DNA of 40,218 nucleotides from Caldithrix sp. (GTDB taxonomy: Bacteria; Spirochaetota; Leptospiria; Turneriellales; Turneriellaceae). The stretch is taken from positions 1 to 40,218 of the forward strand of contig DYKF01000006.1 of NCBI GenBank assembly GCA_020722745.1, in the 5' to 3' direction. Of this stretch, positions 18,670 through 40,218 are shown in pieces. The notes under the pieces were generated by a model that saw only the letters and a program-made list of their open reading frames with translations, had not been told where the DNA came from and did not search any database. Position 1 is the first letter of the stretch; the number at the start of each line of letters is the position of its first letter. The translations under genes and the position numbers were made by a program.

Positions 18670-18711
18670 GGAATATACTTGACACGGCGTGCCGGGCGTA
18701 AAGGGAAATGT

Positions 18712-20952: not shown

Positions 20953-22173
20953 ATGAAACAAATACGGATTCTACTGGTAACCGCCCTTTTTTTGATGGCG
21001 CAATCCGCGTTTCCTTGGTTTGAGGAATTCAGGCAGTCTGTAAAAGGCAAGTCCATGGGGAATGCCTCTTATGGCACATTCGATGGTGTTGCCTCCTTAT
21101 ACTACAACCCGGCTTCCATTGCTCACCAGGAAAAGGTCGATGTCATGATGTCTGTTTTTGAGCCAGCTGGGGGATTTACTAAATTTGACGATGGCTCATC
21201 GCTGTTCCAGTTCGATATGGCTGTCGTTACGCCATTTGCCAATCCCGTGAATCTCAAAACGGCTGGCTGGGCAGGCGATTTTATTACTACAGACGCTGGT
21301 TTTGGGCTTTCTTTTATCCAGCAATCGTACGATTCGGGCGATGGTACGGCTACTGTTGCCCAGCGCTATGTGGGTCTCTCCTATGCTAAACGACTCGATG
21401 ACGTATTATTCAAAGGGGCGCGCCTTTCCGCTGGAATCACGGGGAATATTTATATGCTCAGTTTTGCAGGGCAGGATATAGGAAACAATGCTGCCTTTAA
21501 GAATACGAGTTCGGCGGCCTTTTCTCCTGATATTGGCGTAATCTATAATTTTTCGGACGATATTCTCGTCTCTGTCATTATGGAGAACCTGCTCCCGACT
21601 TCGGTTTCGCCTTTTGATGACGGAGAGCGGCTCACTTCTAATACCATACTTGGCCTTTCGTATGCCTTTGGCGATATCGGTGCTCTTCCCCTATTACAGG
21701 ACATTACTATTAACGGCGCCTGGAAAATGATCTCTCCGGCAGACCAGGGGAAGAACTCTACCGCTCATCTGGCAGCGACAAATACATACCATCTTGGCTG
21801 GGAATCGTGGTATAAAATTCCGGAGATCGAAGTGGCTGCGCGCAGCGGTTTTTCCATGGGAGATATGGAGTACTCGGAATACAGTTTTGGCTTAGGGATA
21901 GGCCGCGCAATAGACCCCGCTCAAAAACATCGCGTAGATTTGGATATGGCGTGGGCGTGGTCGAGCATGTTCAATGGCATGGGAGCGGATCACCGGTATT
22001 ATGTTTCCCTCCTCTATAAGTACAAGTTTGATTCCTATTTGCTGCCCAGACAAAAGGTGCAGAGAAGTCTGGACGTGAAGGAAGATCTTGTGCCAGAGGC
22101 ACCTGAGGAGACAACACCGCCCAAAACAGAAAACGGAAAAGCAAAGATTAACGTAAAATCAAAGGAGCAGTAA
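20953..22173 (+). CDS. PorV/UPF0164-like outer-membrane beta-barrel protein
   Basis: The 406-residue protein has a signal peptide (1-20, MKQIRILLVTALFLMAQSAF). Its opening motif KSMGNASYGTFDGVASLYYNPASIA (about 33-57, quoted in part) is typical of FadL-superfamily PorV/PorQ-like and treponemal UPF0164 barrels. Alternating strands fill 60-350, for example GFGLSFIQQSY, LSAGITGNIYML and HRYYVSLLYKYKF. After the last strand comes a hydrophilic Pro/Glu/Lys tail of about 45 residues, unusual for a barrel and probably periplasmic. In Bacteroidetes, PorV delivers T9SS cargo to the cell-surface attachment complex. Here it directly precedes two giant secreted proteins: its stop codon abuts the next ATG, and the shared AAGGAG lies within its last codons. 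A role in their export or anchoring is plausible but unproven. Confidence 0.75.
   Translation: MKQIRILLVTALFLMAQSAFPWFEEFRQSVKGKSMGNASYGTFDGVASLYYNPASIAHQEKVDVMMSVFEPAGGFTKFDDGSSLFQFDMAVVTPFANPVNLKTAGWAGDFITTDAGFGLSFIQQSYDSGDGTATVAQRYVGLSYAKRLDDVLFKGARLSAGITGNIYMLSFAGQDIGNNAAFKNTSSAAFSPDIGVIYNFSDDILVSVIMENLLPTSVSPFDDGERLTSNTILGLSYAFGDIGALPLLQDITINGAWKMISPADQGKNSTAHLAATNTYHLGWESWYKIPEIEVAARSGFSMGDMEYSEYSFGLGIGRAIDPAQKHRVDLDMAWAWSSMFNGMGADHRYYVSLLYKYKFDSYLLPRQKVQRSLDVKEDLVPEAPEETTPPKTENGKAKINVKSKEQ
22162..22167 (+). promoter_or_regulatory. Ribosome-binding site coupling the PorV-like gene to giant protein 1
   Basis: A perfect AAGGAG lies 6 nt before the ATG at 22174. The PorV-like stop codon (22171-22173) sits between the two, so the genes are directly coupled. 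Confidence 0.75.
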
Positions 22174-25100
22174 ATGTTGAGATTTCTTTCTGCGGCACTC
22201 TTAGCCTTTGGTTCTTTGTCGGCCACGAGTTTTTATTATTACAACGATTACAGCAGTGGCACGCCCAATGTAGTTTGGTATGGGCGGGATGGCCATATTC
22301 AGCCAAGTAACTCGAGCAATAATACAACGATCACCGGAGGAGTAATTCAATTTTCCGGCGAGGTGAACAATGGTGACGGGAACTACTATGGAATCTGGCT
22401 TGGCCGCATGCAGCAGGAGGGAGATGTATACTCGGCTTCTTCTCAAAAACCGTTTGGCGTCCAGGTAATCAAATCTGCTGCAAGGCTTGACCCGAGCGAC
22501 GATACCTCTAATCCTGAATCACATAGGCACATGAATGGGATGAGCTTTTATCTGTACAGCGATGAAGACGTTTTTAATGACGCAGGGCGCGTTTTATCTG
22601 ATTTTACTTACATGTACGAGATCTATCGCTCCCAGCGCACTGCTTACCAGAGTCCCCATGACTGGAGTACAACGGATTTGCCCCTGAGCATGTGGGGCTA
22701 TTATTCTGCCGCAGAGACCAATTTTTCCATGGTTTCCAGCGTTCGACCAGATAATACCTCGATAGATCTCAGTTACCAAGGTATTGGCAGCCAGCAGGTG
22801 GAGTGGAATTACGATGACAGGTATTCGAGCTGCCCAAGCGGGGGTGGGACATGTTTTGACAATAATGGGGGAGGTGCAGATGACAATGGCACACTCAATG
22901 AAAATCCCGCCAATAACAACCTTATTGGAATGCGGATGGTTCACGATGGAGACACCATTCGGTTCTTTATCAATCCAGATCCCGATGAAAATGACCCTCT
23001 TCCAAATGAGTATATTGAGGCGGGCTCTGTTGCGGCCACATTTAGCAATAATCTTAAATTTATGTTTGGTGTGGAATCGGCGCGCGCAGACACAGAAACG
23101 CAGATAGCGTCTTTCGACAATCTTCTCGTTCGCTCGGTTGCCGATGGCGACACCACCTATGCAGAAATCAATCCAACGCAGGTGCATGTTGGGGATTCTG
23201 TTCCTTTCTCCCTGGTACTAAACCCAACGCTCAATACAGACGATGCCGGTATTGCCGAACTTAAAATCACCAAACCATCTGTCTATGCAGGCTGGGATAT
23301 TAGCTCTCTTGGCGTGTTTTCCACCCACGGTGGCGGAGCAGCTTGGAGTGAAATAAGCGCTCTCAAAAGCCATACCGTTAACAACAAGGGTACCAATTGT
23401 TCTTACAGCGTTCCAGCCGACGGCGGCGTAGATGTCTGTACCAGCGGCAACGATCTCATTGTAAGATTTCGCGCCGTCTCTTCTGCCGATAACGATGTGA
23501 TACAATCTGCGGATGCCGAAAAACGCATAGGAATTACTTTTACGTTTACGGCTCCCGGAACGCCCGATGCAGCTGGACAGGAGTTTGCTGTCTTTGCCCG
23601 CAACGAAAAATACGATACCTCGCACACGGATAACACAACCGGCAATGATGGACTTCGCTATGCAACTACCGGATGGCAGAAGGTGCGCGCAGGGGATGCC
23701 CATACCTGGACGTCCGATCTTCTCAAGGTAAAAGTGTTGGATTTGCCCGTTGGGTATTCTACGTTTTCTCCCTCTGTACTTTATGTTGGTTTCCCGCAGG
23801 ATCTTGCACACTACATAGCAACGCCAAACGATCCCAATAATTCCGGAATAGACAAAGTAGAATTTGAAATTTACAGCCAGACGTATACAGAAGGCAACGG
23901 AAGCTGTACCGGCGCAGGTATTTCGGCCTCTAATCCAGATTGTTATGTGGACAATGCAGCAATCCCTTGGTCAGATTTTGGCGTAAGCGGAACTAATTTT
24001 GCCACCAGTCTGTTAGATGCTGGATTAAGTTCTTCGCTGTCCGGCAATACGGCTGTCGTGCAGTACAATTCATCCGCCATGATTCCTGGAGACGGCGGTC
24101 TGGATAAAATTACCTTTCCCGGAACGGCAACTCCATCGGTTACATCTCCCTCTTACTTTCGCGTGAAGGCGCGCGTCTTTAACACTACCTTGTCTGCGAG
24201 TTCCACCAATGCTGCAACAGGAATATTCCCGGCATTTGGCCAGTTTTTTGTATTGCGCCCAGCCAAACCACTGGCCACGGCTATGATTACGCCTTCCGTG
24301 GCCTGCAATTCCAATGCAGCTGCGTATGGGCCCAATGCTCCGCCAACGGAACCCAACTATACGGTTTGCAATAACACAAGTTCTTCTACGGTAACGTTTC
24401 AGCTTACCAACCAGGGAAAAGATGGAAACAATATAAAAACAGTTCGTCTTAATTTGCCAGATGCGATTACCTCGGTTACGAATGTTTCTGTGGATGTGGT
24501 TCAGGGCGGCGAATCGTTTTCATTTACTGACTCAAGTCATTCTTCCAAGATTGTTTTTAACAATACTGCCGGAGCCAAAACTCTTACGATTTATCTGGAT
24601 GGTATCAAAGGCAGTGGCGACGGCAATCTGGGCCTATTGGGCAGCAGCGGTGCCAAAAATTCCATGAGTGTAACCATGACGCTGGGAGATTCCGTGGCGA
24701 CTCTTTCTGGCACAACGGTATTTGATATTACGGGCAACATTGACAACGGCAACGGAGATGCCTTAACCGACAACGTCTATTCACAGGATTCCGCCGGTAC
24801 CTATGCGCTTACCTATGTCAATCCTTTCCCGCGCGCTAAGGCAGAGGTCGGGCGCAGCACTGCGTTTTCTTATCCGATACAGGATCCATCGGGAAGCCGC
24901 GAATTGTACGTTACTAGCTCTAATGATTCTGTTCGCCTGAGTTACAAACTGTTTAACCCTTCTGAAACAGAGGATTCCACTAACGCGGGGAACGGGATCA
25001 AAATGGCCCGGATTTTTGTTCCGGCGGTGTTTACTTCTATTTCCAATGTTACTTCTGCGCGGGGAGGCAGTGCGGCTGTAAGTGGGAATGAAATCACCCT

Positions 25101-28100
25101 GACATATGCAACGCCCGTTGCTCCGGGAGATTTTGATGAGATCACTTTTGACACGATAGAAAATAATAATGCTTTGTCTTCCCATGCGTTTACCTCCAAT
25201 GTGAGCAACTCTACAGATACGGCTGACTATAAAAACACGGCTGCCCTTTCGGCATCTTCCGATGAAATAAGTTTTGTCTACCAGCCTCTGAACGCTGCCG
25301 GGTATGCAGAGGTATGCCACAATTCTCCGGAGGCTGGTCGCTGTTCCCATACCGATTCTGCCGATAACGAGAGCAATCCTTTGCTCATCGATAAATCTCT
25401 TGCATGGGATAACGGAAGTAGACAAAACACAATTCGTTACTATTTTACGAACACGGGAATGGCGGGAGCTCCCATCAATAAACTGCGCCTGTATATTCGC
25501 AAAGATGCAGAGACTGGGTGGGATGCAGCGGGCGCCGATGCTCTGGATACCGCGTGGCTTGCCACGGGAGACAGCAAGGCCTTTGATTCTGTTACCGGCT
25601 TTGTAAACGGAAGTTCCTCCAGCGTGAGTTGTACGGCAGATGCAGCCTACTCAAACAAATATATTGAGTGCGATTTTTCTGCCGCAGGTGGGGTAGACAC
25701 AGACGATACCGACAATTATATTGAGCTTAAGATGGGGCATTTACAAAGCGCCATGCCTTCTTCACAAACGATATCGTTTCGTGCTCGTGGCTATAACCAG
25801 CTTTCCGCTGCAACGGGTGGAACGTGGTATCCATCGAACAACTCTGCCGATTTTATCCCGGTTGCTTCTACGGCAGAAATGGCCAACAGCACGCAGCAGG
25901 TAAAATTTTCTGTAGCCAAACCTAAGGCATCGGTTCAAGCCTATTTGACTTTGAGCAACGCAGCGGCCATCAACTCCATGCCTGCCGTAAGTGCGGCTAC
26001 GCCCGTCAAAGCGTATCTGCATCTAAAAAACAGCGGTGTGGGCACGAACTATATTTACAAGGCTAAAATAGACATTCCTTCTGCATGGCAGGGAAAAATT
26101 TCCAGCATAGATAATGGTGGGACCTCTACCCAGGGAGCAACAGTTACAGATAATGGAGATCATCTGCTCGTGAATTACGAAGGGCTTGCCGATTGTTCCG
26201 GCGACAGTTATACCGTTGGCTGTTTAACGGCTTCTGGTACCGACGGCATAGAGATTACGCTGAACCATACCTATAATGCTTCTGCCTCTTCGCTCTGGTC
26301 GGTGAGTGCCAGCAACGATTCTTCTCCCGATACCGTGGTTTACGATTCGGGTACGGCCCAAAGCGGGTATTCCCTGTCTCTTGGAATCAACAAAAAGGGT
26401 CTCACGCGCCTGACCAGTTCTTCGGATAAGAATACGGTAACGCCCGGAAATCCCGTTCAGCTGTATACGACAGATTCTTTGGGGAGTATCCTATACCGTC
26501 TGACCAACGAAAATCCATCGGGAGGTCTATCCATTGGAAGAGCGCGCATTGCCATTCCGGGAGGATTTATCGTTTCGAATATTGAATCGACGCAGTTGGG
26601 CAGCAGCCCAACCACTTATGGAAATCAGTCTAAGTCGGGGTATGGTGAAATTTCAACGGATGGCATTGGCAATGATGATGGAATCTGCGATGAGTTGGAG
26701 GCCTGTAGATATGTCTATCTGAGTTATTCTTCCGGACTTGCGGCAGGAGATCTTGACGACATTTCTATATCGTTTAAGAAAAATCCATCGGGAGATAACT
26801 TTTCCGCAGGCAGCCATACATGGACTGCCGAAGCAGTATACCAGGACAGTACAACAGATTCAGTTGCCGATGTGCCGCAAAATTTTTCGGGAACCGGTGG
26901 CGACTGGTACGATCTCTCTTCCCAAATTGTGAGCGGAGGATCTGTTACCACTGAATTTATTCTGCCCCCCATGCCGGCATCGGCTTATCTTTCGGTGAAT
27001 ACAAATGTCTTTGACAACCGCAAAAATCATTTGTCTTATGCATTTCCTGCCTGGGGTTCGGTGCCAGAAACGACTCTCGATGATGGGGCCTTGAGTTTCT
27101 TTGTGAAAAACGAGAGTTCTATTGCCGGCAACGACATGCAGTATATCCGCATCAGCAGTCCGGCACTGGTAAGTAGTCTAGATAAAACCACTCTTGCGTT
27201 AAAAAAAGACGGAACCCTTTTGACTGCTGCCAATACCACTTCTCCAGATGGCCAGTGCGATGGCTGGGATTTTTCAACGGGGGATTTCTGCTACGACGAC
27301 AATTCCGATCCCAAAGATATTATTGTGAAGTTTAAAAAGGGCGTGGCGAACCAGGGTAGTCTATTGGAAATAAATACGAAGGCGACATTCAGCTCACATG
27401 CGAGCGGCGATTCCGCTGCGTTTACCGTGAGCGTCAGCAATGATCCAGGCAGTACCAATTTAACCCCTGCAGTTACACCAGTTGTGGAAGGTGAAAGCAA
27501 CACGGATCGTAGTCTTACTTTGCACTTCTATGAGCCTCTTCACGCGATGCAAATGTATGTGCAAAAAACAAATGTAGAGGATGGCGATCCCTCGAGCGAT
27601 ATATCTTTGTATAAGAGCGGGGTCGATCATTCCGTGAGTCTTTTTGTTCGCAATGCAGGACATGCCAGTGCAGAGCTAAACCAGATCACCGTGAGTCTGC
27701 CACTTTCCGTGTTTAAGGCGGATGGAAATTCCACCTACGCATTGTATCATGCCGACGGTACTACACTGTTTACCGATGGAACAGATTACAGTTGCAGTGG
27801 CGATTGTACGAGTGGAACATTAGATCCTGCGGCAGATGGAAACGGTTCCAATTTTATTGTCACTTTTACGAGTGCCGCAGCGACCATTCCAAGAGACAGT
27901 TTTGTGGAGGTTCGTTTTACGGGTCTTGAAAGCTCCGATGCGGCTGTTTCCGATGCGGCTTCTGTTTATCCTGTAACCGTAACAGCTGCGGATCGTTTTC
28001 AGGTGAGTGGGCGTTTTTCTACCGGTTATACCCAGACTTATACGGCAACCGTTTTAACGGGTAAGAGCGATGTCATGTATCTCAAGCAGCCGGATCCATC

Positions 28101-30384
28101 GGTAGACGTAACGCTTGCGGGTGATGATATCCAGTTGTTGACCACGGCCGGCGCATGGTATACCGTGTATGGCCACCAGAACGAGACAGATGCATCGGTA
28201 GTTGCCACAGGAAATAAACGAAAAATCCGGCTGAATGTAACGAATACGGGAAATGGAGCCAATGCAATCTCTTCCGTAAAAATTACATTCCCCGATTTTG
28301 TAGCCGAGTATCTGAAAGATCCCGATAAAGATGGCAGCTGGGATGGGGACGATGCCACTCTGCTGGGTGGCGAGATAACAGCTACTGCATTGAGCGGAGA
28401 TATTTCCGGAGCCGGTGCAGAGGATTTTTCTTCCATAGCATCGAATACTTTTACCGTTTCGTTTTGTAATGCGGGTGCACCGGTTTTAGATCCCAACGAA
28501 AAAGCCCAGATTGAAATACCGGTCAACTATAAAATTTTGTCTATTCCGGATACACCGGCAACGTGGACGGTAGAAGTTTCTAACCAGCCATGTGCTGCTG
28601 TCAGCACGTACCAGGCTGCAAATCTTGCTCTGGGCGGGACTCTTTCTCATGCTTTTACCTCCCCGCCGTCGATTGTAGAAGTAGAAGTGATCGAGGGAAA
28701 AAATTTGTATAGTTATTCTAACGAAGCCGACAACCGCGCGTTTACGCACACGCTCAAAGTAAAAGTGACCAATGGAGCGGCTCCTCTGCCGTACTTTGCC
28801 TTTCGTGTTCCAGGATCGGAGTTTGGAGTGAGCTCGGTTACCGCAACGTCGTCAGTCGACGGTGAAATAACTCCCCAATCGGGCTCTGATTTTTATGTGA
28901 TACCGGTCGATTATGGGGCCGGAACCGGGCTTGCCGCCAATGCAACGGATACTGTAACCGTAACGCTTAAAGGAAGCATGAGCCGCAGTTATGCAACCCC
29001 AGCCGACTATGCTTTAGAAACGCGCATTCCCTATACGGGCATTTGCGATTCAGGTGTTGCTGACGTCACAAATGATTTGTTGAACGAAACGGCCAACTGC
29101 ATTGCCCCAACGGGAGACAGAGATTTCTCTATTATTCCCGCTCCCTTTGCCGGCATTACCGGTACAATTCTGCCAAAGCAGAATGTAAAAGATAAAAATA
29201 TTCAGGTCTCGGTTTCTCTCTACGACACCAATGGAACGGCTTTAGTCGATTTCTCCGGGGATCGCATGGCGGTCAATACTGCTTCGGGTGTGGGTCAGGT
29301 CACTTTTACCGGCGGAAGCAGCACGCTTGCGGATGCATCGATTGCAGGTTCGGGCAAGGGAATTCCGATGTGTACGGATATTGCTGGCAGTTCCTGTTCT
29401 GCCAACAAAACCATTTTGCTGAAAGCATCGGCGCCTGGTTATATAACCGCCTCCAAAGAAATAGTCTTAGAGCGCAATACCTACAAAGATCTGGGCGATA
29501 TTCTGACTCTGGAAGAAGCGCCGTTCACCGTTGGCGGTTCGGATGAGAATATAGCCGTGGGCCGCGATGGAACCGACAAATGCGCCATTATTGAAATTCC
29601 CGGAGAGGCTATTAACGAGACATTTTTTGTGAAACCAAAATGTTATACTGTTTCGCAGTGGGAAAGCTCTACCCATGCATGGGATCAGAAATATGCATCC
29701 GGTGGTTCTTCTGCCATATTGGCCGGAAAAAAGAATATCCGCAAGCCGGAAGTTATGGCGTTGCCCAATGTTCCCGTTTTCGCTCTGGATCTCCAGGATG
29801 CTGCTGGAAATTCCATTGAGACAATGGATCTGCTGCATCGCGAACTGAGCAAGGGAATCAACGAGACAAAAGCTAACGGAAAGATTACGTTTAAGTATAA
29901 AGAAGAGAATATTGCGGCAGCCGGCTGGAGTGAGAACAATCTCTCCGTGTTTGCCTATGATTTGTACAGAGGCGAATGGATCAAAATTGGCTCCAAAATA
30001 GATGCTGCCGCCAACACGGCAACCATCAGCGTTGGAACTCTAAATAGATACTATGGAATCTTTGGAGCCGATTCTTCTGGTGGTGTTATTGCCGATGTGA
30101 CAGTATCACCGCGTGTATTTACGCCAGGGAAGGGAAGCCGCCATTTTGATCGCGTCTCACTGACGTATACAATCAACGGATCGCCAAATTCTCTGGAGGT
30201 TGCCATTTACACGGTGGAGGGCAAGCGGGTGTATTTTATTGAAAAGCCGGGCGATATGGGAGGCGGCCAGATTTTCTGGGATGGCCGCGACGATAACGGT
30301 AATTTGGTAAAGGGCGGAATTTACGTCTACGTGATTCGCGCCGGGGAAGAGCGGTACCGCGGTACCATTGTAATTGCGAGGTAA
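22174..30384 (+). CDS. Giant secreted repeat protein 1 with FlgD-Ig/CHU_C-like C-terminal domain
   Basis: The 2736-residue protein has a signal peptide (MLRFLSAALLAFGSLSA). An N-terminal lectin-like beta region follows (about 20-330; conserved GMRMVHDGDTIRFFINPDP). About eleven repeats of roughly 180 residues come next (335-2320), each with an Asn-rich ligand-like turn, an (I/V)xxPxxxxxI strand and a GD-D-(E/I)TF element reminiscent of DUF11-type Ig-like repeats. Then come a carboxypeptidase-regulatory-like domain (2323-2450), a ZU5-like region (2451-2635) and a C-terminal Ig-like domain (2640-2736). That last domain has SPRVFTPG, AIYTVEGKRVY, WDGRDDNGNLVKGGIYVYVI and final GTIVIAR. All 28 cysteines fall in short-range pairs. 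EF-hand-like Asp loops such as DPDKDGSWDGDD suggest calcium binding. It is likely a surface filament or adhesin. Function is unknown. Confidence 0.88.
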   Translation: MLRFLSAALLAFGSLSATSFYYYNDYSSGTPNVVWYGRDGHIQPSNSSNNTTITGGVIQFSGEVNNGDGNYYGIWLGRMQQEGDVYSASSQKPFGVQVIKSAARLDPSDDTSNPESHRHMNGMSFYLYSDEDVFNDAGRVLSDFTYMYEIYRSQRTAYQSPHDWSTTDLPLSMWGYYSAAETNFSMVSSVRPDNTSIDLSYQGIGSQQVEWNYDDRYSSCPSGGGTCFDNNGGGADDNGTLNENPANNNLIGMRMVHDGDTIRFFINPDPDENDPLPNEYIEAGSVAATFSNNLKFMFGVESARADTETQIASFDNLLVRSVADGDTTYAEINPTQVHVGDSVPFSLVLNPTLNTDDAGIAELKITKPSVYAGWDISSLGVFSTHGGGAAWSEISALKSHTVNNKGTNCSYSVPADGGVDVCTSGNDLIVRFRAVSSADNDVIQSADAEKRIGITFTFTAPGTPDAAGQEFAVFARNEKYDTSHTDNTTGNDGLRYATTGWQKVRAGDAHTWTSDLLKVKVLDLPVGYSTFSPSVLYVGFPQDLAHYIATPNDPNNSGIDKVEFEIYSQTYTEGNGSCTGAGISASNPDCYVDNAAIPWSDFGVSGTNFATSLLDAGLSSSLSGNTAVVQYNSSAMIPGDGGLDKITFPGTATPSVTSPSYFRVKARVFNTTLSASSTNAATGIFPAFGQFFVLRPAKPLATAMITPSVACNSNAAAYGPNAPPTEPNYTVCNNTSSSTVTFQLTNQGKDGNNIKTVRLNLPDAITSVTNVSVDVVQGGESFSFTDSSHSSKIVFNNTAGAKTLTIYLDGIKGSGDGNLGLLGSSGAKNSMSVTMTLGDSVATLSGTTVFDITGNIDNGNGDALTDNVYSQDSAGTYALTYVNPFPRAKAEVGRSTAFSYPIQDPSGSRELYVTSSNDSVRLSYKLFNPSETEDSTNAGNGIKMARIFVPAVFTSISNVTSARGGSAAVSGNEITLTYATPVAPGDFDEITFDTIENNNALSSHAFTSNVSNSTDTADYKNTAALSASSDEISFVYQPLNAAGYAEVCHNSPEAGRCSHTDSADNESNPLLIDKSLAWDNGSRQNTIRYYFTNTGMAGAPINKLRLYIRKDAETGWDAAGADALDTAWLATGDSKAFDSVTGFVNGSSSSVSCTADAAYSNKYIECDFSAAGGVDTDDTDNYIELKMGHLQSAMPSSQTISFRARGYNQLSAATGGTWYPSNNSADFIPVASTAEMANSTQQVKFSVAKPKASVQAYLTLSNAAAINSMPAVSAATPVKAYLHLKNSGVGTNYIYKAKIDIPSAWQGKISSIDNGGTSTQGATVTDNGDHLLVNYEGLADCSGDSYTVGCLTASGTDGIEITLNHTYNASASSLWSVSASNDSSPDTVVYDSGTAQSGYSLSLGINKKGLTRLTSSSDKNTVTPGNPVQLYTTDSLGSILYRLTNENPSGGLSIGRARIAIPGGFIVSNIESTQLGSSPTTYGNQSKSGYGEISTDGIGNDDGICDELEACRYVYLSYSSGLAAGDLDDISISFKKNPSGDNFSAGSHTWTAEAVYQDSTTDSVADVPQNFSGTGGDWYDLSSQIVSGGSVTTEFILPPMPASAYLSVNTNVFDNRKNHLSYAFPAWGSVPETTLDDGALSFFVKNESSIAGNDMQYIRISSPALVSSLDKTTLALKKDGTLLTAANTTSPDGQCDGWDFSTGDFCYDDNSDPKDIIVKFKKGVANQGSLLEINTKATFSSHASGDSAAFTVSVSNDPGSTNLTPAVTPVVEGESNTDRSLTLHFYEPLHAMQMYVQKTNVEDGDPSSDISLYKSGVDHSVSLFVRNAGHASAELNQITVSLPLSVFKADGNSTYALYHADGTTLFTDGTDYSCSGDCTSGTLDPAADGNGSNFIVTFTSAAATIPRDSFVEVRFTGLESSDAAVSDAASVYPVTVTAADRFQVSGRFSTGYTQTYTATVLTGKSDVMYLKQPDPSVDVTLAGDDIQLLTTAGAWYTVYGHQNETDASVVATGNKRKIRLNVTNTGNGANAISSVKITFPDFVAEYLKDPDKDGSWDGDDATLLGGEITATALSGDISGAGAEDFSSIASNTFTVSFCNAGAPVLDPNEKAQIEIPVNYKILSIPDTPATWTVEVSNQPCAAVSTYQAANLALGGTLSHAFTSPPSIVEVEVIEGKNLYSYSNEADNRAFTHTLKVKVTNGAAPLPYFAFRVPGSEFGVSSVTATSSVDGEITPQSGSDFYVIPVDYGAGTGLAANATDTVTVTLKGSMSRSYATPADYALETRIPYTGICDSGVADVTNDLLNETANCIAPTGDRDFSIIPAPFAGITGTILPKQNVKDKNIQVSVSLYDTNGTALVDFSGDRMAVNTASGVGQVTFTGGSSTLADASIAGSGKGIPMCTDIAGSSCSANKTILLKASAPGYITASKEIVLERNTYKDLGDILTLEEAPFTVGGSDENIAVGRDGTDKCAIIEIPGEAINETFFVKPKCYTVSQWESSTHAWDQKYASGGSSAILAGKKNIRKPEVMALPNVPVFALDLQDAAGNSIETMDLLHRELSKGINETKANGKITFKYKEENIAAAGWSENNLSVFAYDLYRGEWIKIGSKIDAAANTATISVGTLNRYYGIFGADSSGGVIADVTVSPRVFTPGKGSRHFDRVSLTYTINGSPNSLEVAIYTVEGKRVYFIEKPGDMGGGQIFWDGRDDNGNLVKGGIYVYVIRAGEERYRGTIVIAR
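23176..29138 (+). repeat. About eleven diverged ~540-bp coding repeats in giant protein 1
   Basis: By eye, module starts recur at phrases such as TYAEINPTQVHV, LATAMITPSVAC, PRAKAEVGRSTA, KASVQAYLTLSN, PASAYLSVNTNV and PSIVEVEVIEGK. Each is followed by an N-x-(I/L)xxhxhxxP strand and a closing NxxxDxxDxSG element. Copies are clearly homologous in pattern but strongly diverged, and I see no long identical DNA, so the expansion is old. Exact copy number and boundaries need a profile alignment. Confidence 0.65.
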
Positions 30385-30387
30385 ACC

Positions 30388-33300
30388 ATGAAGACAATAA
30401 AAAAAATAATTCTGACCATTCTGTTTTCTGGACTGCCACTGTTTGCGTTAGACGAATACCATGACAGTTTTGATGGCAGCAATACCACCTGCGGGAGTGC
30501 CAATAACTGGTGCATGAATTTTCCGTATGGGCGCAGTGGCTTTCTAGATGTAGATCACGGTGGATGGGAGAATTATAAGGCTGGTGACCCTATTGGTATG
30601 AGCACATCTACCGGGTATAGTGATAATTCCGTTCTACATATTAAAGATATGCCAAGCAATGGAGATCTTCTCTACAATAACTATTGGACTGGCAGGGTAG
30701 CCAGACTGGATTCTACTTACAGCGCCACTCCAGAGCAACCCTTTGGTTTTGAGGTTATTCGCTATTATTCTGTCGTAGATCCAAGTAACGAGAAGCAGGG
30801 AACTTCGACGTATCATCGTGCAGCATTGAATATCTGGCTAATTGAAAATTCAGCACTGTCTTCCATGAATGGGCCTTTCTCCCCGACGGATGCGGATTAT
30901 CAGTCCTATGATTTTTCTACATTACCAAACTTTATTTATTTCTATGAATTCCAGCAGGCTAATCAGTCATCGAGCCGATTGGGATATTTTTCTGGCTCAG
31001 AAAATGATTTTGATATTACTCAGGCGTTAAGTCCAGAAAAATCCGTAAACGATTTAAATCCTGATAATACCGGTTTGCTGTTTACTTCGGGATCTCCTTT
31101 TGACGGCGACGCCATTGGATGCACGGATCCCGATACCTCGAATAACGTCTCTTACAATGATAAAAATGACAACGATACTGACAGTAATCCCTATTTTACG
31201 GAGAACCGCTGTGGACGAGCGAGCAACCGAAAAATTGGAATCAGGATGACCCATGACGGCTCCGTTGTACGTTTTTACCTTAATCCTAACCCCGAAAGTG
31301 ATGGCGGGAATTATGCAGGGTATGCGAACTCATGGCATTATGTTGGGCAGAAGGTTGTTCCTTTTAATACCAACATGAAGGTTATGATTGGGCAGGAGCA
31401 ATTCTATTTTCGGACAGAAAATGTTTCTGCAATTTACGATCACTACCTCGTGCGCCCCGTTGCGCAAAGTGCCACAGTAGAGCTCACCTCTCCTCAATAT
31501 GGAGGTGAAATTCGCGCTCTGCTCGGTGCTGCCCAGGAATATGGATTAAAAATAACGCCCACGATGAATGCTACCGACGCGGGAGTGGGCGAAATTTATA
31601 TACAGAAACCGGATGCAGCGGGAGAATTGTTTAACGGAAGCAACTGGGATTTTAATAGCATTGTAGTTTGCCAGGATAACGACGCCGATGCTTCGAGCGG
31701 AAAAGCCTGTAACGGCGCGGGCGAGGTGCGCCTTACTTACAGCGGCAATGCCAGCAATCCTTCTGCAGGAAACTTTTCTGCCTTCTCTGTCAACAATGAC
31801 ACTACGGAAACCCTTGCCACGGGAGGGCAGGGTTCCATTGCCGTGCTGCGCTTTCGCAAAACCTCCGGTGCCGATAACCAGGTGTTTAAGCAGTTGGGAG
31901 CCGGCGCTCATATACGCGTATATTTCACTCTTTCCGCTGCCAACGCCGGTTCAGAAGGCCAGCAGTTTACAGCCTGGGTAGACAACCAGAAATTCAGCGA
32001 TACTGCGCAGGAATTTGCTCTCGATTCTAACGGTCTGCGTTATTCCACTACGCACAGAATGAAGGCATCACCTGCGAGCGCATCGGCTTTACAAGTAAAA
32101 ATATTTTCCCAGCCTGCTCTCAATATGGCAGTCAGCGTAAGTCCGGATCCGCTTTATTGGGGGGATCTGCTTCCGTTTGTCACCATTGAATTGAGAACAG
32201 ATGCAGCCGGTTCGGGTCCCGGAATAACCCGCGTTGTGCTGCAAATGCCATCCGAGGGAGATTTGGCTCCGTTCGATTTTGAACTTAAGGATGGTAGCAA
32301 TATCTCGTCCATTATCGATTCCCTGCGCATCCCCGATTCGTTGGAAACGGCAGATAAGATGATGGTTTTTTCTGGTGCCGCAGACGACCTAGACGATTGC
32401 ACCATGGGGACATATACGTATTGTTATTATACAAATTCTTCGTCACCTGCATACAGAAAACTTGTCGTCCATTATACGAGCAGCTATTATATACCTGGAA
32501 AGTCTGGTTACGACCGCATCACGTTTTTTATGAAGGCTGCACCAGAATTTTCAGCAGCTTCCCAGATTACGGCAAACTGGTCTGCTCAGGGTGATTCGGC
32601 GGCTTATGTAGAGGGAACCACGCTGCAGGCTGCAACGGCGTATAATGCGGATGCGGCCAACACCCAGACATTGGTGCGCGCAACGCCAGCCCAGACAATT
32701 GCCTGGCTCAATACCAATGTGGCCAGCAATAATGCTAATGGGGCCAATCCATCTACGGTGAATGTCACGTATTATGTGAAAAATCAGGGGGGGGCTTCTA
32801 ATATAGTGAAGAGAGTAGAATTGCTCATTCCCTATGAATCCTATACCTGCGATGATCCCGGCCCCGAGGCGGGAACCTGCGATGGGACGAGTGGCAGCAC
32901 GCGGGAAAATTTTGAAACAGTTGATTCGGGGGATATTGTTTCTGTGCTGGCAGATGGCAGTGCAGTGAGTCCCACGATTACCATAGTCGGAAACGAAACT
33001 ATTGGCGGAAATACCTACAGAGTGGTACGGCTCGATTTGTCTAGTTCCCCGCTGAACTCCGGTTCTACACTGGCTGTCAATATGAATCTGCGCTATTTTC
33101 GAGATACTAATGCAGCTCTTGCGCAGTACGCGATAAAACACAGGTCAGATAACGAAAATTACTCGGCGGCTCCGGGATATCCGTATCCGCAATACACGGA
33201 TGGCTCAGAAAATCCGGCTGCAAGCTGGTCTCTTTCGTTTACCCCTCCTGAACCGCGCGGTGAGGCTTTTGTATTCAGGGGAGACAAATCTGTACAGACA

Positions 33301-36300
33301 GATCAATTTTTGTCGCCACTGGTTTTAACCAGCGAAATCAGCAGTGGAGATATTTCCAATATTCATATGAAGGTTCTCAATAAGGGGGGCCTGTCTAATA
33401 ACATTGATTCCGTAGTCATCGATATTCCAGAATTTTTCGACGCGGATTTAGGCGGTGGAAATTATGGGATAGCAGATGTTTGCAGCACTTACCTGAATGT
33501 GCTTGGTGGAACATCGATTGATTGCGCTTCAGATGGAGGGAATATTACGCTGGATCATGGGAACCATAAGGTTACCATTGATTATTCCGGGGCGGGGTAT
33601 GTCTTAAAATCAGACCAGGACACTATCAGTGGAACGGTATGCCCGGGCGAGAGCAATGTCCCTTGCGAAATAGTTAGTTTTACCATACGACAAAATTCCA
33701 GTCTGGCCAATCCGGGGCTCTCGGATTCTCTGTATACAATCAGCGATGGTAACAGCGATGGAATATACGAGACCGTTACCAATGCAGGCTCCGATGGGAA
33801 CAGTGCGGTTCGCTCTGGAACATTCAGGGCCAAATTAAATAATTCGTCTGGTGTAACTTCGTATGCTCGGCAGAAAACGGGATCTACTTTGACAACAATG
33901 CTGGAATATCCAGACCCCTCTCTGGAATCCTTTGTGACATCGAATCTGGCGCAGTCAGAAGTCTACGAGGTAGATGCAACGTCTTCTACCTCTTCTGTCA
34001 AAGTCTATATCAAGAATCCTTCCGAGTTGGCCGGGAACGATATCTATAAAGTGGATATAGAGTTTCCCGACATTGTCTCTGGCATTCCGACAGTTTCTTC
34101 CTTGAACCGAGAAACATGGAATCCCACTGCTTCGCAGACAGAGCTTTCTGGAACGGATTTTACCAGCGCATGGGATGGCGCAGCGCGCAAACTCACGATT
34201 ACGTATGAATCAGGGAAGGAACTGCCTCCCTCTGCTAGCGCTGATTTTTCGGTGATAGACATAATAGCGCTTTCTTTCAGTGACACGGTTACAACGAGCT
34301 CTCTGCAGGCCTTAAAGCTGTACGGCTATAACAGGGTTTCTGCGAGTAATACGGGTAAATCCGCTCAAGCGTCTCTCTATAATGGAGCCGACCCAGATGA
34401 TACCTATAACGATGGCTCAACCGAAGACAATTCTATTCTGTACCAGATTCCTTCTGGTCTGGCTACAGCCGTTGTAGAACCTGCCGTGGCGTATACCACG
34501 TCTTCTTCGAGAACGCAGCAGAGCCGTTTCTATGTTCAAAACACGGCCATAAGTGGAACTACAAATTATATATATAAAATCCAGATTGGTCTTCCTTCCG
34601 GCGTAACGGTAGCACAGGCTTCTGACGTTTCGACTCGCTTTGGAGCCGGTGCTGGAGTAACTTGTTCTGGAGGAGATGGATTTACCGGAGGTTGTGCCGG
34701 ATCGAGTGAAAAAATTGAAATAGATAATTCGTCTTCCTATTCCATTCCCTGGTTAGACACGGCTTCTAATTCCAAAGACGTCATTTTGATAAAATGGTCG
34801 CATAATTTGTCTTCGGAGGATACAAGACAATTTGTCTTTGGTTTTGACAATAATGATGGGAATCTATATGCCGGAAATCAGGAATCTCTGCCTGCTTCGC
34901 TCACGACGGTTTCTATTGTGGCGGAACCGCAAATAAAAGTGGAAGTGCTTGAAAAAACAGGTGATCCTCAAAACCCGCCCTCTCGGATAGACAACCAGAG
35001 CATTGCCGTAACAGTTCCGGATACTTCGTATCATCGCTTCAAGATGAGCATTGCGGGAAACGCAGGCCTGCAGAAACTTGCGCGCGTAAAAATTATTCCA
35101 CCTTCCGTGTTTGATGTAGCTTCTCTCGATGCAGTCGATCTGCTGCCTTCTGGAACTTCCATGTCTATTTCTGGTGGTGAATGGATTGTCACGTTCCCCG
35201 GTGGAAAGCTGACAGCGGCAACGGCTACTCTGGAATTCCGAGTGCGCGAAAACCGGGACTTTAATATTCCTGGAACACATGTTAATGCCGAGGAATTGTC
35301 CTGGGTTGCACAGGCAGACTTTTTTACGGACATTTTAGATACAAATTTGTATGCTTATACAAATTTGCCGGGGCCTGCTTTTGACGGAAAAATTAATCCC
35401 GATTCTACAGATGACTCCATTGCCTATATAGCGGAATCGGATCTTTCTGCTCCCGCCGCTTTATCCCCTGTTTCTGGGGTTGGCGATGCCGGTATTGCAT
35501 GGGACAAAACTGTGTTGAGAAATCCAGACCCTTCGTTTATTGCTTATGCGAATCCCAATGAAGCGTACCGAATCAATCCAGGAAATCCCGATTACACGTG
35601 GACGCAAAATATTTACTTTGAAAACCAGGGAGAACTCTCCAACGATCTGCGAATTTTCCGCATCAAGGCTCCGGCTGTACTCACTGCTCTTGCGGGATGT
35701 ACGGATTCGGCAGCCTGTACTTTAGACGAGAATAGTTTTGAACTGAAAAAAGGCAATACTGGCAGCAATGAATCTGGCTGGGCGACCATTTCGACGACAG
35801 ATTTTACGGTGGCGAGTGTCGAGTCTGGCGGAAATTTTTCTCTCTCTGCGGAAGAAACGCTTCTCTTTACCCTTGCTGAATCGGTGCGCATTGAACAGGG
35901 GGAGACTCTAAAAATTGCGTTTTCCGCTTCGCACGCGGAAACGACGACATCGGCAGTCAACTGGTCCGTATTCTCTGGAAACTATAACGCGACCGAGAAT
36001 ATTTTGGCGGGAAGTGATCCCGTTCCGTTTGGTCATTCCGCCGAGCTTGCCGTTGTTTCGCCCACGTACGGTGCCAATTTTGTTCTAAGTTCTGTCAACG
36101 GTGTTGCGGGTGGCAGTTCCATAGACGCTGCGTCTTCCGCGAACAGTTTTTCGTTTTTGCTTACGAACAATTCTACGGAGGGAGACGCTCTCACAAACCT
36201 TCGCGTTGCGCTGCCAGGATATTTTGATCTGGATTCTGCGACGATTACGAGCAGCCGTGGTGGTACGGTTACTGTCCACGAAGATGTGGATCAGTACGAC

Positions 36301-39108
36301 ACGTCTACTATTGAAGGTGCCATAGAAACGACAGAAGTAAACACCTTTAATAAAGACCATTATTTTGAGATACAATATGCAGTTCCGATTCCCACAGGGG
36401 AGAGCGATACGATAACGGTAACCGGTCTGACAGATTCATTCTTCAGTGCTGCTTCGCTTACCATGAATGACAGGGCAGATGCCTGCGGTCTGATTTCCCG
36501 CCCTGAAACTACGGGCACGTTTACCTGTCCTGGTGGATCTTTGTCTAGCCAGACGAGTGGGGGCGCTGTCAGCTTTAAGGCATCGGCCTCTTACAACACG
36601 AGCTCCGGTGGCTATGCGTATATACGCTCCTTTCCCAATGGTTCCAATCGACTTGCTATGCGGCAGCAGCCTGCCGTGGTGCAGGCTTCTTTGCCGGTTA
36701 CTAAATTGACAGGCCCGGAGGCCGGCCCACGCACGCACGAATTAAGCCTGAAGATCACCAATGGTGGACCAGCCACGCGACCCGATGACAGAATCTATCG
36801 CGCGAAGATTGTCATCCCGAAGTTGTCGGGGCTTATCACCAGCGTGACTGGTGTGGGTTCTTCTGTTATTGCAAACGATGCTGTTGACGTAAGCGTGGTG
36901 CAAAGTGGCGCTAACGACTACTACTTTGTATACCTTAACTATGAAAACGATGGTGGTCTATTGCCGGGCATCTCCGACACCATTACATTCACCATTGAGG
37001 AAGATTTGGAAAATAACGGAAACCTGTCTATTCAGGCCTTCGCGGATAACCACTCTTCCATCACGGCAACTGGCGCTTCTGATGACAATATTTCTGCTGG
37101 AAATACAAATGGCTGGATAAGTTTAACGGATGATACCGGACTTATACAGGGAACGCAAGCGATGGGAGAGCTGCGCCTCACCTTTGTGCCAGAGGATTAT
37201 AAAGCAAAGGGTAAAATTGTCTATTTTGTGGACCCTTCTGTGACCGATATTTCCCGGGCAGCAGATTTGGAGATTCTCAAGAATAACTGTTCGCCCTCTG
37301 CCCCTTCTTTGGAGATTGCCTGCGATGCGAGGTTTGCCGGCTACCTGATAGACAATTTTGGATCGGCTGCACAAACCGCATACGACAATACGTTTAAGAT
37401 AACCTACCAGATAAAAAATGCCTCTAGCAATTTTGCCATTACTCAGTCGCAGCTCGATATTATCGTGGCGCCCAATTCGCTTGTGATGGGCAGCCTTGCC
37501 GATTACTTCCAGATTGCCGGCATTACGTCTTCTAAAGGCGGCTCTGTTTCTGCCGTTAGCTGGCAGGATACCAGAAAAGCTGATGGCTCAGAGGGAACAG
37601 ATTCTGTCAATGAGACCATGCGCTTTACGGTAGATTACAGCGGAGCGGGAAATTTGCTCAAGGGAGAAACCGATACCCTCACCATTACGCTGGCCTGGAA
37701 AAATACTCTGCCCTCCGTGCTGCCTGCGGGAAGTGTTGATAAAAGTATTTTGAGCTCAACGGATGCCTATCAGGTGGATGGTTCCAAAGGTAGTACCTTT
37801 GATGCGAAGTTTTCCGATCCTAATAAAATGAACATTCAATTGGAAACCGCTCTTACTGCCACGTTTGAGACGGGAGCAGAGCGAACCGCCGAAAATTCCG
37901 GACAAAAGTATTTCCACATTCGCAAGGCTCCGTTTGGAAGAATTCTCGGAGAGGTGGCGCCTGCATCGAGAAGTTTGTCGTTCTCTCTGTATACGGATAC
38001 TTCGGGCAGCCTCGCTACGGCAAAAGATATACTCAATGGCGATATAGCACCTTCCATTTCTGTGACGCGTTTGGGAGAACAATACGGCCAGTTCGTCTTT
38101 GACCGCATTCCAGCGGGGACAGCCTATGTAATCAAGGCGAGCTCATCGGATGCGGATCTCGAGAGCGAAGATTATCTGAAAACCAAAACAGAGAAAAATC
38201 GCTGGTCGCTGTTTACAGTAAATTCCAATGCAGCCTTGGATCTTACCGTAACCCTTCCGGGTCCTTACGAAGTAAAATACAGACAGCTGTCGGCGGAAAC
38301 AGGTGGTACGGTAACTGCTCCTCTGGACGGGAAGAGCAAAATTATTTTGCCTCCTGGGGCATTGGATAATTCGCCAAGAATCAATATTCGCATAGAGGAG
38401 ACTGCGTCGCAGGTGTGGGGCCTGCTGTCGGATGCTGGAGCCCAAATGACCGGCTATTCGATGCCGTCGGCAAACCGCGCGACTCATCCCGTCTACAATC
38501 TCGTCAACGAACTCGATAACGGAAGCGGCATAGAGCCCGTGGTAGAAAACCAGTTGAAGGGAGATGCAACGCTGGTTCTCGCTTATGACAACTCTTTGAT
38601 TTCCAGCAACAACTGGAGCGAGGACAGCCTTGGGATTCATTACTGGGATTTTACAAGGAAGAAATGGGTTGCGATTGGTGGAAAAGTGGATATTACGGAG
38701 AACACGGTAACGGCGGAGATTTCTTACATGCATAGAACGTATACCGTAATGCCGCTTTCTGGCGCTGGAGAGATTGCCAACGTTACATTGTTTCCGAGAG
38801 TGTTTACGCCGGGAAGAACGGATTCGCATTACAGTGGAGCCGATCCAATGGCGGGCGGTGAGAAAACGTTTGGAAACATGAAGATTTCCTTTACTCTGCC
38901 CAATCCGGTTTCGGAATACCGAGTTGCCATTCTCGATTTGCGCGGTCGCAGGGTTAAGCTTTGGGAAAAAGATACGCAGACAGGGCAGGGGAGCGTATAC
39001 TGGGATGGCCGCGACGAAGCAGGCGCCCTGGTTCCTGGTGGGATATACCAGTATGTTGTAGAGGCAGAAGGGAAACGATATAGAGGAACGGTTGTCGTGG
39101 CAAGATAA
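30388..39108 (+). CDS. Giant secreted repeat protein 2 with ZU5 and FlgD-Ig/CHU_C-like C-terminal domain
   Basis: This 2906-residue paralogue of the preceding protein starts 3 bp after it, with AGGT inside the previous gene's end. It has a signal peptide (MKTIKKIILTILFSGLPLFA) and an N-terminal lectin-like region (about 25-360) sharing the motif KIGIRMTHDGSVVRFYLNPNP. About eleven repeats of about 195 residues follow (361-2513), then an APFGRILGEV-type linker domain. A clear ZU5 domain comes next (about 2628-2790, with GGTVTAP...KIILPPGALD), then a C-terminal Ig-like domain (2796-2906: FPRVFTPG, AILDLRGRRVK, VYWDGRDEAGALVPGGIYQYVV, GTVVVAR). All 22 cysteines occur as local pairs. The composition is Ser/Thr/Asn/Asp-rich, typical of surface proteins. 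Same-operon tandem duplication suggests that both are displayed or assembled together, perhaps by the PorV-like barrel. The role is not known. Confidence 0.88.
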   Translation: MKTIKKIILTILFSGLPLFALDEYHDSFDGSNTTCGSANNWCMNFPYGRSGFLDVDHGGWENYKAGDPIGMSTSTGYSDNSVLHIKDMPSNGDLLYNNYWTGRVARLDSTYSATPEQPFGFEVIRYYSVVDPSNEKQGTSTYHRAALNIWLIENSALSSMNGPFSPTDADYQSYDFSTLPNFIYFYEFQQANQSSSRLGYFSGSENDFDITQALSPEKSVNDLNPDNTGLLFTSGSPFDGDAIGCTDPDTSNNVSYNDKNDNDTDSNPYFTENRCGRASNRKIGIRMTHDGSVVRFYLNPNPESDGGNYAGYANSWHYVGQKVVPFNTNMKVMIGQEQFYFRTENVSAIYDHYLVRPVAQSATVELTSPQYGGEIRALLGAAQEYGLKITPTMNATDAGVGEIYIQKPDAAGELFNGSNWDFNSIVVCQDNDADASSGKACNGAGEVRLTYSGNASNPSAGNFSAFSVNNDTTETLATGGQGSIAVLRFRKTSGADNQVFKQLGAGAHIRVYFTLSAANAGSEGQQFTAWVDNQKFSDTAQEFALDSNGLRYSTTHRMKASPASASALQVKIFSQPALNMAVSVSPDPLYWGDLLPFVTIELRTDAAGSGPGITRVVLQMPSEGDLAPFDFELKDGSNISSIIDSLRIPDSLETADKMMVFSGAADDLDDCTMGTYTYCYYTNSSSPAYRKLVVHYTSSYYIPGKSGYDRITFFMKAAPEFSAASQITANWSAQGDSAAYVEGTTLQAATAYNADAANTQTLVRATPAQTIAWLNTNVASNNANGANPSTVNVTYYVKNQGGASNIVKRVELLIPYESYTCDDPGPEAGTCDGTSGSTRENFETVDSGDIVSVLADGSAVSPTITIVGNETIGGNTYRVVRLDLSSSPLNSGSTLAVNMNLRYFRDTNAALAQYAIKHRSDNENYSAAPGYPYPQYTDGSENPAASWSLSFTPPEPRGEAFVFRGDKSVQTDQFLSPLVLTSEISSGDISNIHMKVLNKGGLSNNIDSVVIDIPEFFDADLGGGNYGIADVCSTYLNVLGGTSIDCASDGGNITLDHGNHKVTIDYSGAGYVLKSDQDTISGTVCPGESNVPCEIVSFTIRQNSSLANPGLSDSLYTISDGNSDGIYETVTNAGSDGNSAVRSGTFRAKLNNSSGVTSYARQKTGSTLTTMLEYPDPSLESFVTSNLAQSEVYEVDATSSTSSVKVYIKNPSELAGNDIYKVDIEFPDIVSGIPTVSSLNRETWNPTASQTELSGTDFTSAWDGAARKLTITYESGKELPPSASADFSVIDIIALSFSDTVTTSSLQALKLYGYNRVSASNTGKSAQASLYNGADPDDTYNDGSTEDNSILYQIPSGLATAVVEPAVAYTTSSSRTQQSRFYVQNTAISGTTNYIYKIQIGLPSGVTVAQASDVSTRFGAGAGVTCSGGDGFTGGCAGSSEKIEIDNSSSYSIPWLDTASNSKDVILIKWSHNLSSEDTRQFVFGFDNNDGNLYAGNQESLPASLTTVSIVAEPQIKVEVLEKTGDPQNPPSRIDNQSIAVTVPDTSYHRFKMSIAGNAGLQKLARVKIIPPSVFDVASLDAVDLLPSGTSMSISGGEWIVTFPGGKLTAATATLEFRVRENRDFNIPGTHVNAEELSWVAQADFFTDILDTNLYAYTNLPGPAFDGKINPDSTDDSIAYIAESDLSAPAALSPVSGVGDAGIAWDKTVLRNPDPSFIAYANPNEAYRINPGNPDYTWTQNIYFENQGELSNDLRIFRIKAPAVLTALAGCTDSAACTLDENSFELKKGNTGSNESGWATISTTDFTVASVESGGNFSLSAEETLLFTLAESVRIEQGETLKIAFSASHAETTTSAVNWSVFSGNYNATENILAGSDPVPFGHSAELAVVSPTYGANFVLSSVNGVAGGSSIDAASSANSFSFLLTNNSTEGDALTNLRVALPGYFDLDSATITSSRGGTVTVHEDVDQYDTSTIEGAIETTEVNTFNKDHYFEIQYAVPIPTGESDTITVTGLTDSFFSAASLTMNDRADACGLISRPETTGTFTCPGGSLSSQTSGGAVSFKASASYNTSSGGYAYIRSFPNGSNRLAMRQQPAVVQASLPVTKLTGPEAGPRTHELSLKITNGGPATRPDDRIYRAKIVIPKLSGLITSVTGVGSSVIANDAVDVSVVQSGANDYYFVYLNYENDGGLLPGISDTITFTIEEDLENNGNLSIQAFADNHSSITATGASDDNISAGNTNGWISLTDDTGLIQGTQAMGELRLTFVPEDYKAKGKIVYFVDPSVTDISRAADLEILKNNCSPSAPSLEIACDARFAGYLIDNFGSAAQTAYDNTFKITYQIKNASSNFAITQSQLDIIVAPNSLVMGSLADYFQIAGITSSKGGSVSAVSWQDTRKADGSEGTDSVNETMRFTVDYSGAGNLLKGETDTLTITLAWKNTLPSVLPAGSVDKSILSSTDAYQVDGSKGSTFDAKFSDPNKMNIQLETALTATFETGAERTAENSGQKYFHIRKAPFGRILGEVAPASRSLSFSLYTDTSGSLATAKDILNGDIAPSISVTRLGEQYGQFVFDRIPAGTAYVIKASSSDADLESEDYLKTKTEKNRWSLFTVNSNAALDLTVTLPGPYEVKYRQLSAETGGTVTAPLDGKSKIILPPGALDNSPRINIRIEETASQVWGLLSDAGAQMTGYSMPSANRATHPVYNLVNELDNGSGIEPVVENQLKGDATLVLAYDNSLISSNNWSEDSLGIHYWDFTRKKWVAIGGKVDITENTVTAEISYMHRTYTVMPLSGAGEIANVTLFPRVFTPGRTDSHYSGADPMAGGEKTFGNMKISFTLPNPVSEYRVAILDLRGRRVKLWEKDTQTGQGSVYWDGRDEAGALVPGGIYQYVVEAEGKRYRGTVVVAR
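31468..37926 (+). repeat. About eleven diverged ~590-bp coding repeats in giant protein 2
   Basis: Modules begin at phrases such as ATVELTSPQYGG, LNMAVSVSPDPL, AQTIAWLNTNVA, RGEAFVFRGDKS, PSLESFVTSNLA, LATAVVEPAVAY, PSFIAYANPNEA and PAVVQASLPVTK. Each continues with NxIxxxxI.IP strands and GG turns. They match the modules of giant protein 1 in pattern, supporting common descent. Boundaries are estimates. Confidence 0.65.
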
Positions 39109-39946: not shown

Positions 39947-39998
39947 TCGGGATTGCTCCTGGTAGACTTTCCTCATAGATGAGACATAATGCGGGTCG

Positions 39999-40218
39999 TT
40001 TGTTAGATAACAAAAAATCGGAATTATGTCACATCTTTAAGGTTTGTTAGATAACAAAAAATCGGAATTATGTCGCATCTTTAAGGTTTGTTAGATAACA
40101 AAAAATCGGAATTATGTCGCATCTTTAAGGTTTGTTAGATAACAAAAAATCGGAATTATGTCACATCTTTAAGGTTTGTTAGATAACAAAAAATCGGAAT
40201 TATGTCACATCTTTAAGG
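39999..40218. repeat. Five tandem 44-bp repeats, each with a palindromic core
   Basis: Five head-to-tail copies (39999-40042, 40043-40086, 40087-40130, 40131-40174 and 40175-40218) are identical except for one A/G position: copies 1, 4 and 5 read TCACATC, copies 2 and 3 TCGCATC. Each begins with TTTGTTA-GA-TAACAAA, a perfect 7-bp inverted repeat with a 2-nt centre. There are no spacers, so it is not a CRISPR array. It runs to the window end and may continue. Confidence 0.95.

Follow-up and report, generated by a model that had tools for sequence, protein, structure and literature searches.

In Flavobacterium johnsoniae and Porphyromonas gingivalis, a PorP/SprF-like barrel, usually the product of a neighbouring gene, picks up the type B cargo of the type IX secretion system (T9SS) and serves as its anchor (PMC12618676, PMC9143113), and the complex of PorP with PG1035 forms independently of both PorU and PorV (PMC9143113). 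At the translocon, PorV spans the lateral opening of SprA, and substrates exit with their C-terminal domain (CTD) first (PMC10994853). A genome-wide survey placed the T9SS in Bacteroidetes only (PMC4793230), and recent reviews describe it as restricted to Bacteroidota (PMC7463736, PMC10202324). Sorting domains without matching machinery have been recorded in some phyla, e.g., the Poribacteria (PMC3909097). Our searches for T9SS in spirochaetes, made in the literature outside most subscription journals, found no such system described. Here, we analyze three adjoining genes of a spirochaete that, in our judgment, are likely to constitute a type-B-like cargo module that serves a type-IX-like, SprA-based route of secretion in spirochaetes.

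A barrel gene followed by two genes for giant proteins

The window, i.e., the whole stretch of DNA analyzed (40,218 nucleotides), is an entire contig (C409) of a 3.05-Mb metagenome-assembled genome (MAG) of 430 contigs that is 98.9% complete and 2.0% contaminated. The host is a Turneriella-like spirochaete, as the first-pass annotation of the bare sequence had considered possible; Turneriella is placed in the Spirochaetota, Leptospirales. The module comprises the following features.

P0001, 20953..22173, + strand: outer-membrane beta-barrel of the PorV/PorP-SprF superfamily, 406 aa (ORF and translation)
P0002, 22174..30384, + strand: giant secreted protein, 2736 aa, with N-terminal domain, repeats and C-terminal domain (ORF and translation)
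P0002 repeat region, 24382..28302, + strand: 7 units detected, residues 737-2043 (iterated HMM in the giants, spacing)
P0002 CTD, 30097..30381, + strand: FlgD-Ig/T9SS-CTD-like (Pfam and alignment)
P0003, 30388..39108, + strand: giant secreted protein, 2906 aa, paralogue of P0002 (ORF and translation)
P0003 repeat region, 32755..36849, + strand: 7 units detected, residues 790-2154 (iterated HMM)
P0003 CTD, 38776..39105, + strand: FlgD_ig match of 39.6 bits, cut-off 27

The direct coupling of a barrel to two giants, proposed in the first-pass annotation, was confirmed: the three ORFs abut on the + strand, with a 0-bp gap between P0001 and P0002 and a 3-bp gap between P0002 and P0003. Judged by eye, both giants start with a signal-peptide-like sequence. 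They carry repeats that lie ~180-200 aa apart (iterated HMM) and are paralogous in two parts, the first ~900 aa and the C-terminal ~187 aa. The latter residues are 37% identical (E 5e-36), and FTPG, GxRV, WDGRD, and YRGT(V/I)V(V/I)AR align in both, in agreement with the shared C-terminal domain that had been read from the sequence. Orthologues of P0002 with conserved gene order are found in two relatives, G017 (83-84% identity) and G048 (about 40%); in the comparison with G048, the final 36 residues are the best-conserved stretch (72% versus 42% overall). We infer that P0002 and P0003 are adhesin-like surface proteins.

The CTD had been described as near to both FlgD-Ig and the type B sorting domain, and of these two likenesses the former is the better founded. 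The CTD of P0003 lies above the cut-off of Pfam FlgD_ig (PF13860), and that of P0002 lies below it (6e-5, 23.4 bits, cut-off 27). CHU_C matched weakly, with 17.4 bits (0.0047) for P0002 and 12.2 bits for P0003, both below the cut-off of 27, and the type B model TIGR04131 matched one of seven CTDs (0.0043). Matches of the window CTDs to T9SS CTD models were weak; all seven CTDs had matches among these models (TIGR04183 at 3.6e-5, PorZ, PorU). A two-sequence model of the P0003 CTD reached a mean pLDDT of 60.7 (about 70-85 across residues 61-130), and a search of the PDB with it returned FlgD as the closest structure, followed by PorU, PorZ, a T9SS substrate CTD (8glk_D; NucA-CTD), and the mirolase CTD. 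In sequence and in fold, the CTD is nearest to FlgD-Ig, and the T9SS CTD families stand further from it than the flagellar FlgD-Ig does. The fold alone is not decisive, because FlgD-Ig and T9SS CTDs have one fold in common. Unlike the Ig-like domain of FlgD, which belongs to the flagellar hook cap, the window domain forms the extreme C terminus of giant exported proteins encoded beside a barrel.

P0001 has a signal peptide, an NPA motif, and a charged C-terminal tail. Its initial description as PorV/UPF0164-like can be retained for PorV with reservation, and UPF0164 was not among what the P0001 searches returned. P0001 matched NCBIfam PorP/SprF (TIGR03519) with E 1.4e-8 and 34.6 bits, well below the cut-off of 90.55, and PorV/PorQ with E 2.7e-7, also well below the cut-off; a Pfam search gave no match. 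Among 18 members of the family, 16 were matched by PorV_fam and 12 by PorP_fam (best PorP_fam E 3.8e-10), and the best, though weak, PDB match of the family profile was the PorV subunit in the structure of SprA with PorV (E 0.0026). Weak FadL/TodX matches occur in searches with the family as well. An AlphaFold model of P0001 made without an alignment had a pLDDT of 30 and did not yield the fold. Overall, P0001 is no less similar to PorP/SprF, the type B shuttle, than to PorV, and it adjoins a type-B-like cargo gene both in the window and in 13 distant genomes. We propose that it is a dedicated shuttle/anchor.

This arrangement is reminiscent of SprB-SprF in F. johnsoniae, where a giant adhesin-like cargo with a conserved CTD likewise goes together with an adjoining barrel of the PorP/SprF superfamily and with SprA in the genome. 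It differs in that the window CTD is FlgD-Ig-like with weak CHU_C/type B matches, in that two giants accompany one barrel, and in that the barrel scores under the PorP cut-off, PorU was not found, and the phylum is Spirochaetota. The window fits the type B plan, in which cargo pairs with an adjacent PorP/SprF shuttle that also anchors it.

Further features were noticed elsewhere in the window. An AcrB-type RND pump of 1352 aa (8706-12764) exceeds the usual length and has ACR_tran matches in two stretches; by eye, the ~250-300 residues after residue ~653 resemble an inserted propeller-like domain, and the orthologue in G017 has 1353 aa (L143:9814-13875). Just ahead of the module (18292-20735) lie an uncharacterised 472-aa ORF and a radical SAM protein resembling spore photoproduct lyase (19707-20735). 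At 39998-40218, five copies of the 44-bp tandem unit GTTTGTTAGATAACAAAAAATCGGAATTATGTCACATCTTTAAG, 98% matching, run up to the contig end.

An SprA-like protein and the search for other T9SS components in the host

The host genome does contain a homologue of a T9SS core gene. A search for SprA/Sov returned a homologue of 1968 aa on contig C113 (L008:12627-18533; TIGR04189 E 4.1e-38) with a score of 130 bits, below the curated cut-off of 200. A PDB search with a single SprA-like sequence gave chance antibody matches only and is superseded by one with a profile built from an alignment of 20 such Spirochaetota proteins, in which F. johnsoniae SprA was the sole match (E 4.9e-44), aligning collinearly with positions 83-734 and 810-1225 of the profile. 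The host protein is thus homologous to SprA/Sov of the SprA-PorV complex (PDB 6H3I) across about 1,150 profile positions, and the PorV subunit of this same complex is the structure that the barrel family matches best. In contrast to SprA/Sov, it is about 1,970 rather than 2,403 aa long, its C-terminal third is unmatched, and it falls under the NCBIfam SprA cut-off.

The MAG "Turneriella parva isolate SulCav_GS09" (L099) encodes an SprA-like protein 93% identical to that of the host, and the neighbourhood of the gene was found again in related genomes of the host family. In a tree made with a quick method, which has some long branches and leaves out Bacteroidota sequences, the host-order sequences cluster by family and the Spirochaetota stand apart from the Fibrobacterota. 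Within Spirochaetota, the SprA-like tree is deep and in line with the host families. Contamination is an unlikely source of the gene, given that the locus recurs in the family and that sequences of the host order fall into their families in the tree.

PorU, one of the components looked for, was not found in the host, where its model NF033707 matches CTDs only; in Fibrobacterota controls, the same model gave full-length matches with E ~1e-120. With this model, PorU was absent from all but one (G047) of 38 SprA-positive spirochaete genomes. Peptidase_C25 had no match in the host in a search run without a control, and GldL and GldM were unmatched in the host and likewise in the Fibrobacterota controls. 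The host system is not a canonical T9SS. The T9SS-like module proposed at the outset is partly supported, by an SprA homologue, PorV-like barrels, and CTD proteins.

G047, a distant member of the Spirochaetota, shows part of a PorU-like peptidase and matches GldL weakly (L129, L198), perhaps signs of a fuller T9SS. This genome and the presence of SprA, PorV-like, and CTD parts could be taken to mean that a complete canonical T9SS (PorU, GldKLMN) came from Bacteroidota and that the missing parts fall into assembly gaps or are too divergent. We regard this as very improbable given the completeness of the host genome (98.9%), the lack of PorU in 37 of the 38 SprA-positive spirochaete genomes with a working control, and an SprA-like tree (without Bacteroidota SprA) that goes deep in Spirochaetota and follows the host families.

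A parallel for cargo handling without PorU is found in PorP-PorE-PG1035 of P. gingivalis, in which type B cargo is held by a barrel with no dependence on PorU or PorV (PMC9143113). In contrast to that system, the window module lacks a PorE-like gene, and a separate Lsa66-like host protein (L010) joins a FlgD-Ig/CHU_C-like domain to an OmpA domain. This protein of 900 aa (L010:5704-8406, C357), a relative of Leptospira Lsa66, has a probable barrel part at the N terminus, the FlgD-Ig/CHU_C-like domain, and a peptidoglycan-binding OmpA end; the N termini of its relatives match PorV_fam. It looks like a shuttle, a CTD-like domain, and a cell-wall anchor in a single chain. Its FlgD_ig match was rejected as a terminal signal, as the domain is internal to the Lsa66/OmpA-like protein.

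For the module itself, a type-B-like mechanism can be envisaged. P0002 and P0003 would leave the cytoplasm by means of their Sec signal peptides, and the shared C-terminal Ig-like domain would act as an export and targeting signal that is recognised in the periplasm at the SprA-like barrel encoded on C113. P0001 might dock at the lateral gate of this barrel, collect the CTD as SprF and PorP do, and remain bound to the cargo as its surface anchor, in which case a PorU sortase would be unneeded.

Barrel-CTD pairs in the host and across the Spirochaetota

Other CTD proteins next to barrels do occur in the host genome. It encodes five barrels of the PorV family, all under the cut-off (in relatives such as G156, G160, and G075, PorV is over the cut-off), and three of the four besides that of the window abut CTD proteins. 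On C105, a 516-aa barrel is directly preceded by a cargo of 903 aa that has a Calx-beta domain and whose type A tail exceeds the TIGR04183 cut-off (25.9 versus 23 bits). A 283-aa CTD protein precedes a barrel-TPR protein on C211, and a secreted CTD-only protein of 118 aa precedes a barrel on C159; for the barrel on C122, no CTD neighbour was found. The C105 and C211 pairs were found again in related genomes, and the C105-type barrels of G125, G048, and G156 have no adjoining CTD cargo. The C159-type pair is retained in SprA-negative G055 and G069 (L187, L188), and a CTD-barrel pair alone is therefore not diagnostic of SprA-dependent export. Accordingly, the C159 pair, considered as support for SprA export, is now weak evidence, since SprA-negative Turneriella also carry it.

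Small secreted CTD-only proteins (118-133 aa) encoded directly before a PorV-like barrel are widespread (L048:2526-3928, L187:1950-3387, L188:1778-3235), and in SprA-negative Turneriella the C159-type protein resembles a lipoprotein by eye. A CotH-like protein of 986 aa (C87, L098) ends in a strong type A sorting tail; it was set aside as a probable MAG contaminant, because its contig is 4.8 kb long and carries a transposase-like gene.

The first-pass annotation had envisaged a system built around a local barrel-cargo pair; the system is not local and is spread across the phylum. In a profile search, the P0001-family barrel was present in 21 of 393 Spirochaetota genomes, and 19 of these 21 are SprA-positive, compared with 64 of the remaining 372 genomes (Fisher 3.6e-12, a value that is too small because related genomes were counted as independent). 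The two SprA-negative genomes with the barrel are MAGs that are 76-78% complete; conversely, 64 SprA-positive genomes lack a P0001-family barrel. Outside the host family, 13 genomes have the barrel at a distance of 19-167 bp, measured between matches, from the same CTD, which mostly belongs to a giant. The ORFs beside these distant barrels end in the same domain, FTP...WDG.D...G.Y...Y.GT. Six of the 13 have a second CTD 7.7-7.9 kb further on and therefore two tandem giants (~2,550 aa). The barrel comes first in the row in the host family and last elsewhere, and in G014, G026, and G045 it is apart from the giants. As a side observation, the complete, single-contig genome G026 has two similar tandem giant-CTD pairs at two sites (L195, L197) and the barrel elsewhere (L196), which makes these duplicated surface loci.

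Within the host family, the SprA-positive members G017 and G048 retain the entire module. G125 retains a P0003-like giant and G156 has a CTD protein of 5442 aa, with the barrel undetected in both. In the seven genomes of the SprA-negative Turneriella sister genus (g3), neither a window-type barrel nor strong window-type CTDs were found, and the PorV genes are only of the C122 and C159 types, as judged by length (in G055 also by sequence). The arrangement and motifs of the module recur in further genera and families and are therefore not due to chance.

Such linkage might nonetheless reflect co-regulation only. The barrel would then be a FadL-like transporter, the giants would reach the surface by another route, and the CTD would have a structural or assembly role such as capping or dimerising. 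The FlgD kinship of the CTD is in line with this, as are the weak FadL/TodX matches, the FadL-like fold class to which PorV and PorP belong, and the persistence of a small CTD-PorV pair without SprA. The near confinement of the barrel family to SprA-positive genomes, the fact that in 13 distant genomes it abuts the same CTD, and the matches of all seven CTDs to T9SS CTD models too (TIGR04183, PorZ, and PorU) argue against it, and we consider this explanation unlikely.

The wider distribution of SprA bears on another alternative. SprA-like proteins were matched in 83 and TIGR04183 in 144 of the 393 Spirochaetota genomes, and at least two TIGR04183 proteins occur in 34 of the 83 SprA-positive versus 8 of the 310 SprA-negative genomes. 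The SprA-like protein might have a different envelope job (other cargo or outer-membrane maintenance), its co-occurrence with the module reflecting shared ancestry and lifestyle. It is indeed four times as widespread as the module (83 versus 21 genomes), and TIGR04183 is unmatched in 24 SprA-positive genomes. Yet SprA co-occurs with the CTDs and also with the barrel family, and SprA and the module are jointly missing in sister Turneriella, which leaves this alternative with a rather low probability.

Implications for surface proteins of spirochaetes

In our preferred reading of the window as a type-B-like cargo module, a type-IX-like route probably serves some spirochaetes for the display of giant proteins on their surface. 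A broader reading, which we put forward tentatively, is that the Spirochaetota own an old SprA-based secretion lineage without PorU and possibly without the Bacteroidota motor, in which barrel-plus-giant modules are a type-B-like branch and the barrel serves as export partner and permanent anchor. If so, "type IX" secretion would not be special to the Bacteroidota and would represent a single branch within a broader SprA family. A natural sortase-free variant would help to tell apart what translocon, shuttle, sortase, and motor each contribute, and it may offer a hint for phyla that have sorting domains yet no matching machinery, such as the Poribacteria (PMC3909097). For the spirochaetes themselves, an SprA-type translocon with linked barrel-cargo modules in many families would represent a second route of building the cell surface besides lipoproteins, one that would account for giant surface proteins in uncultured lineages.
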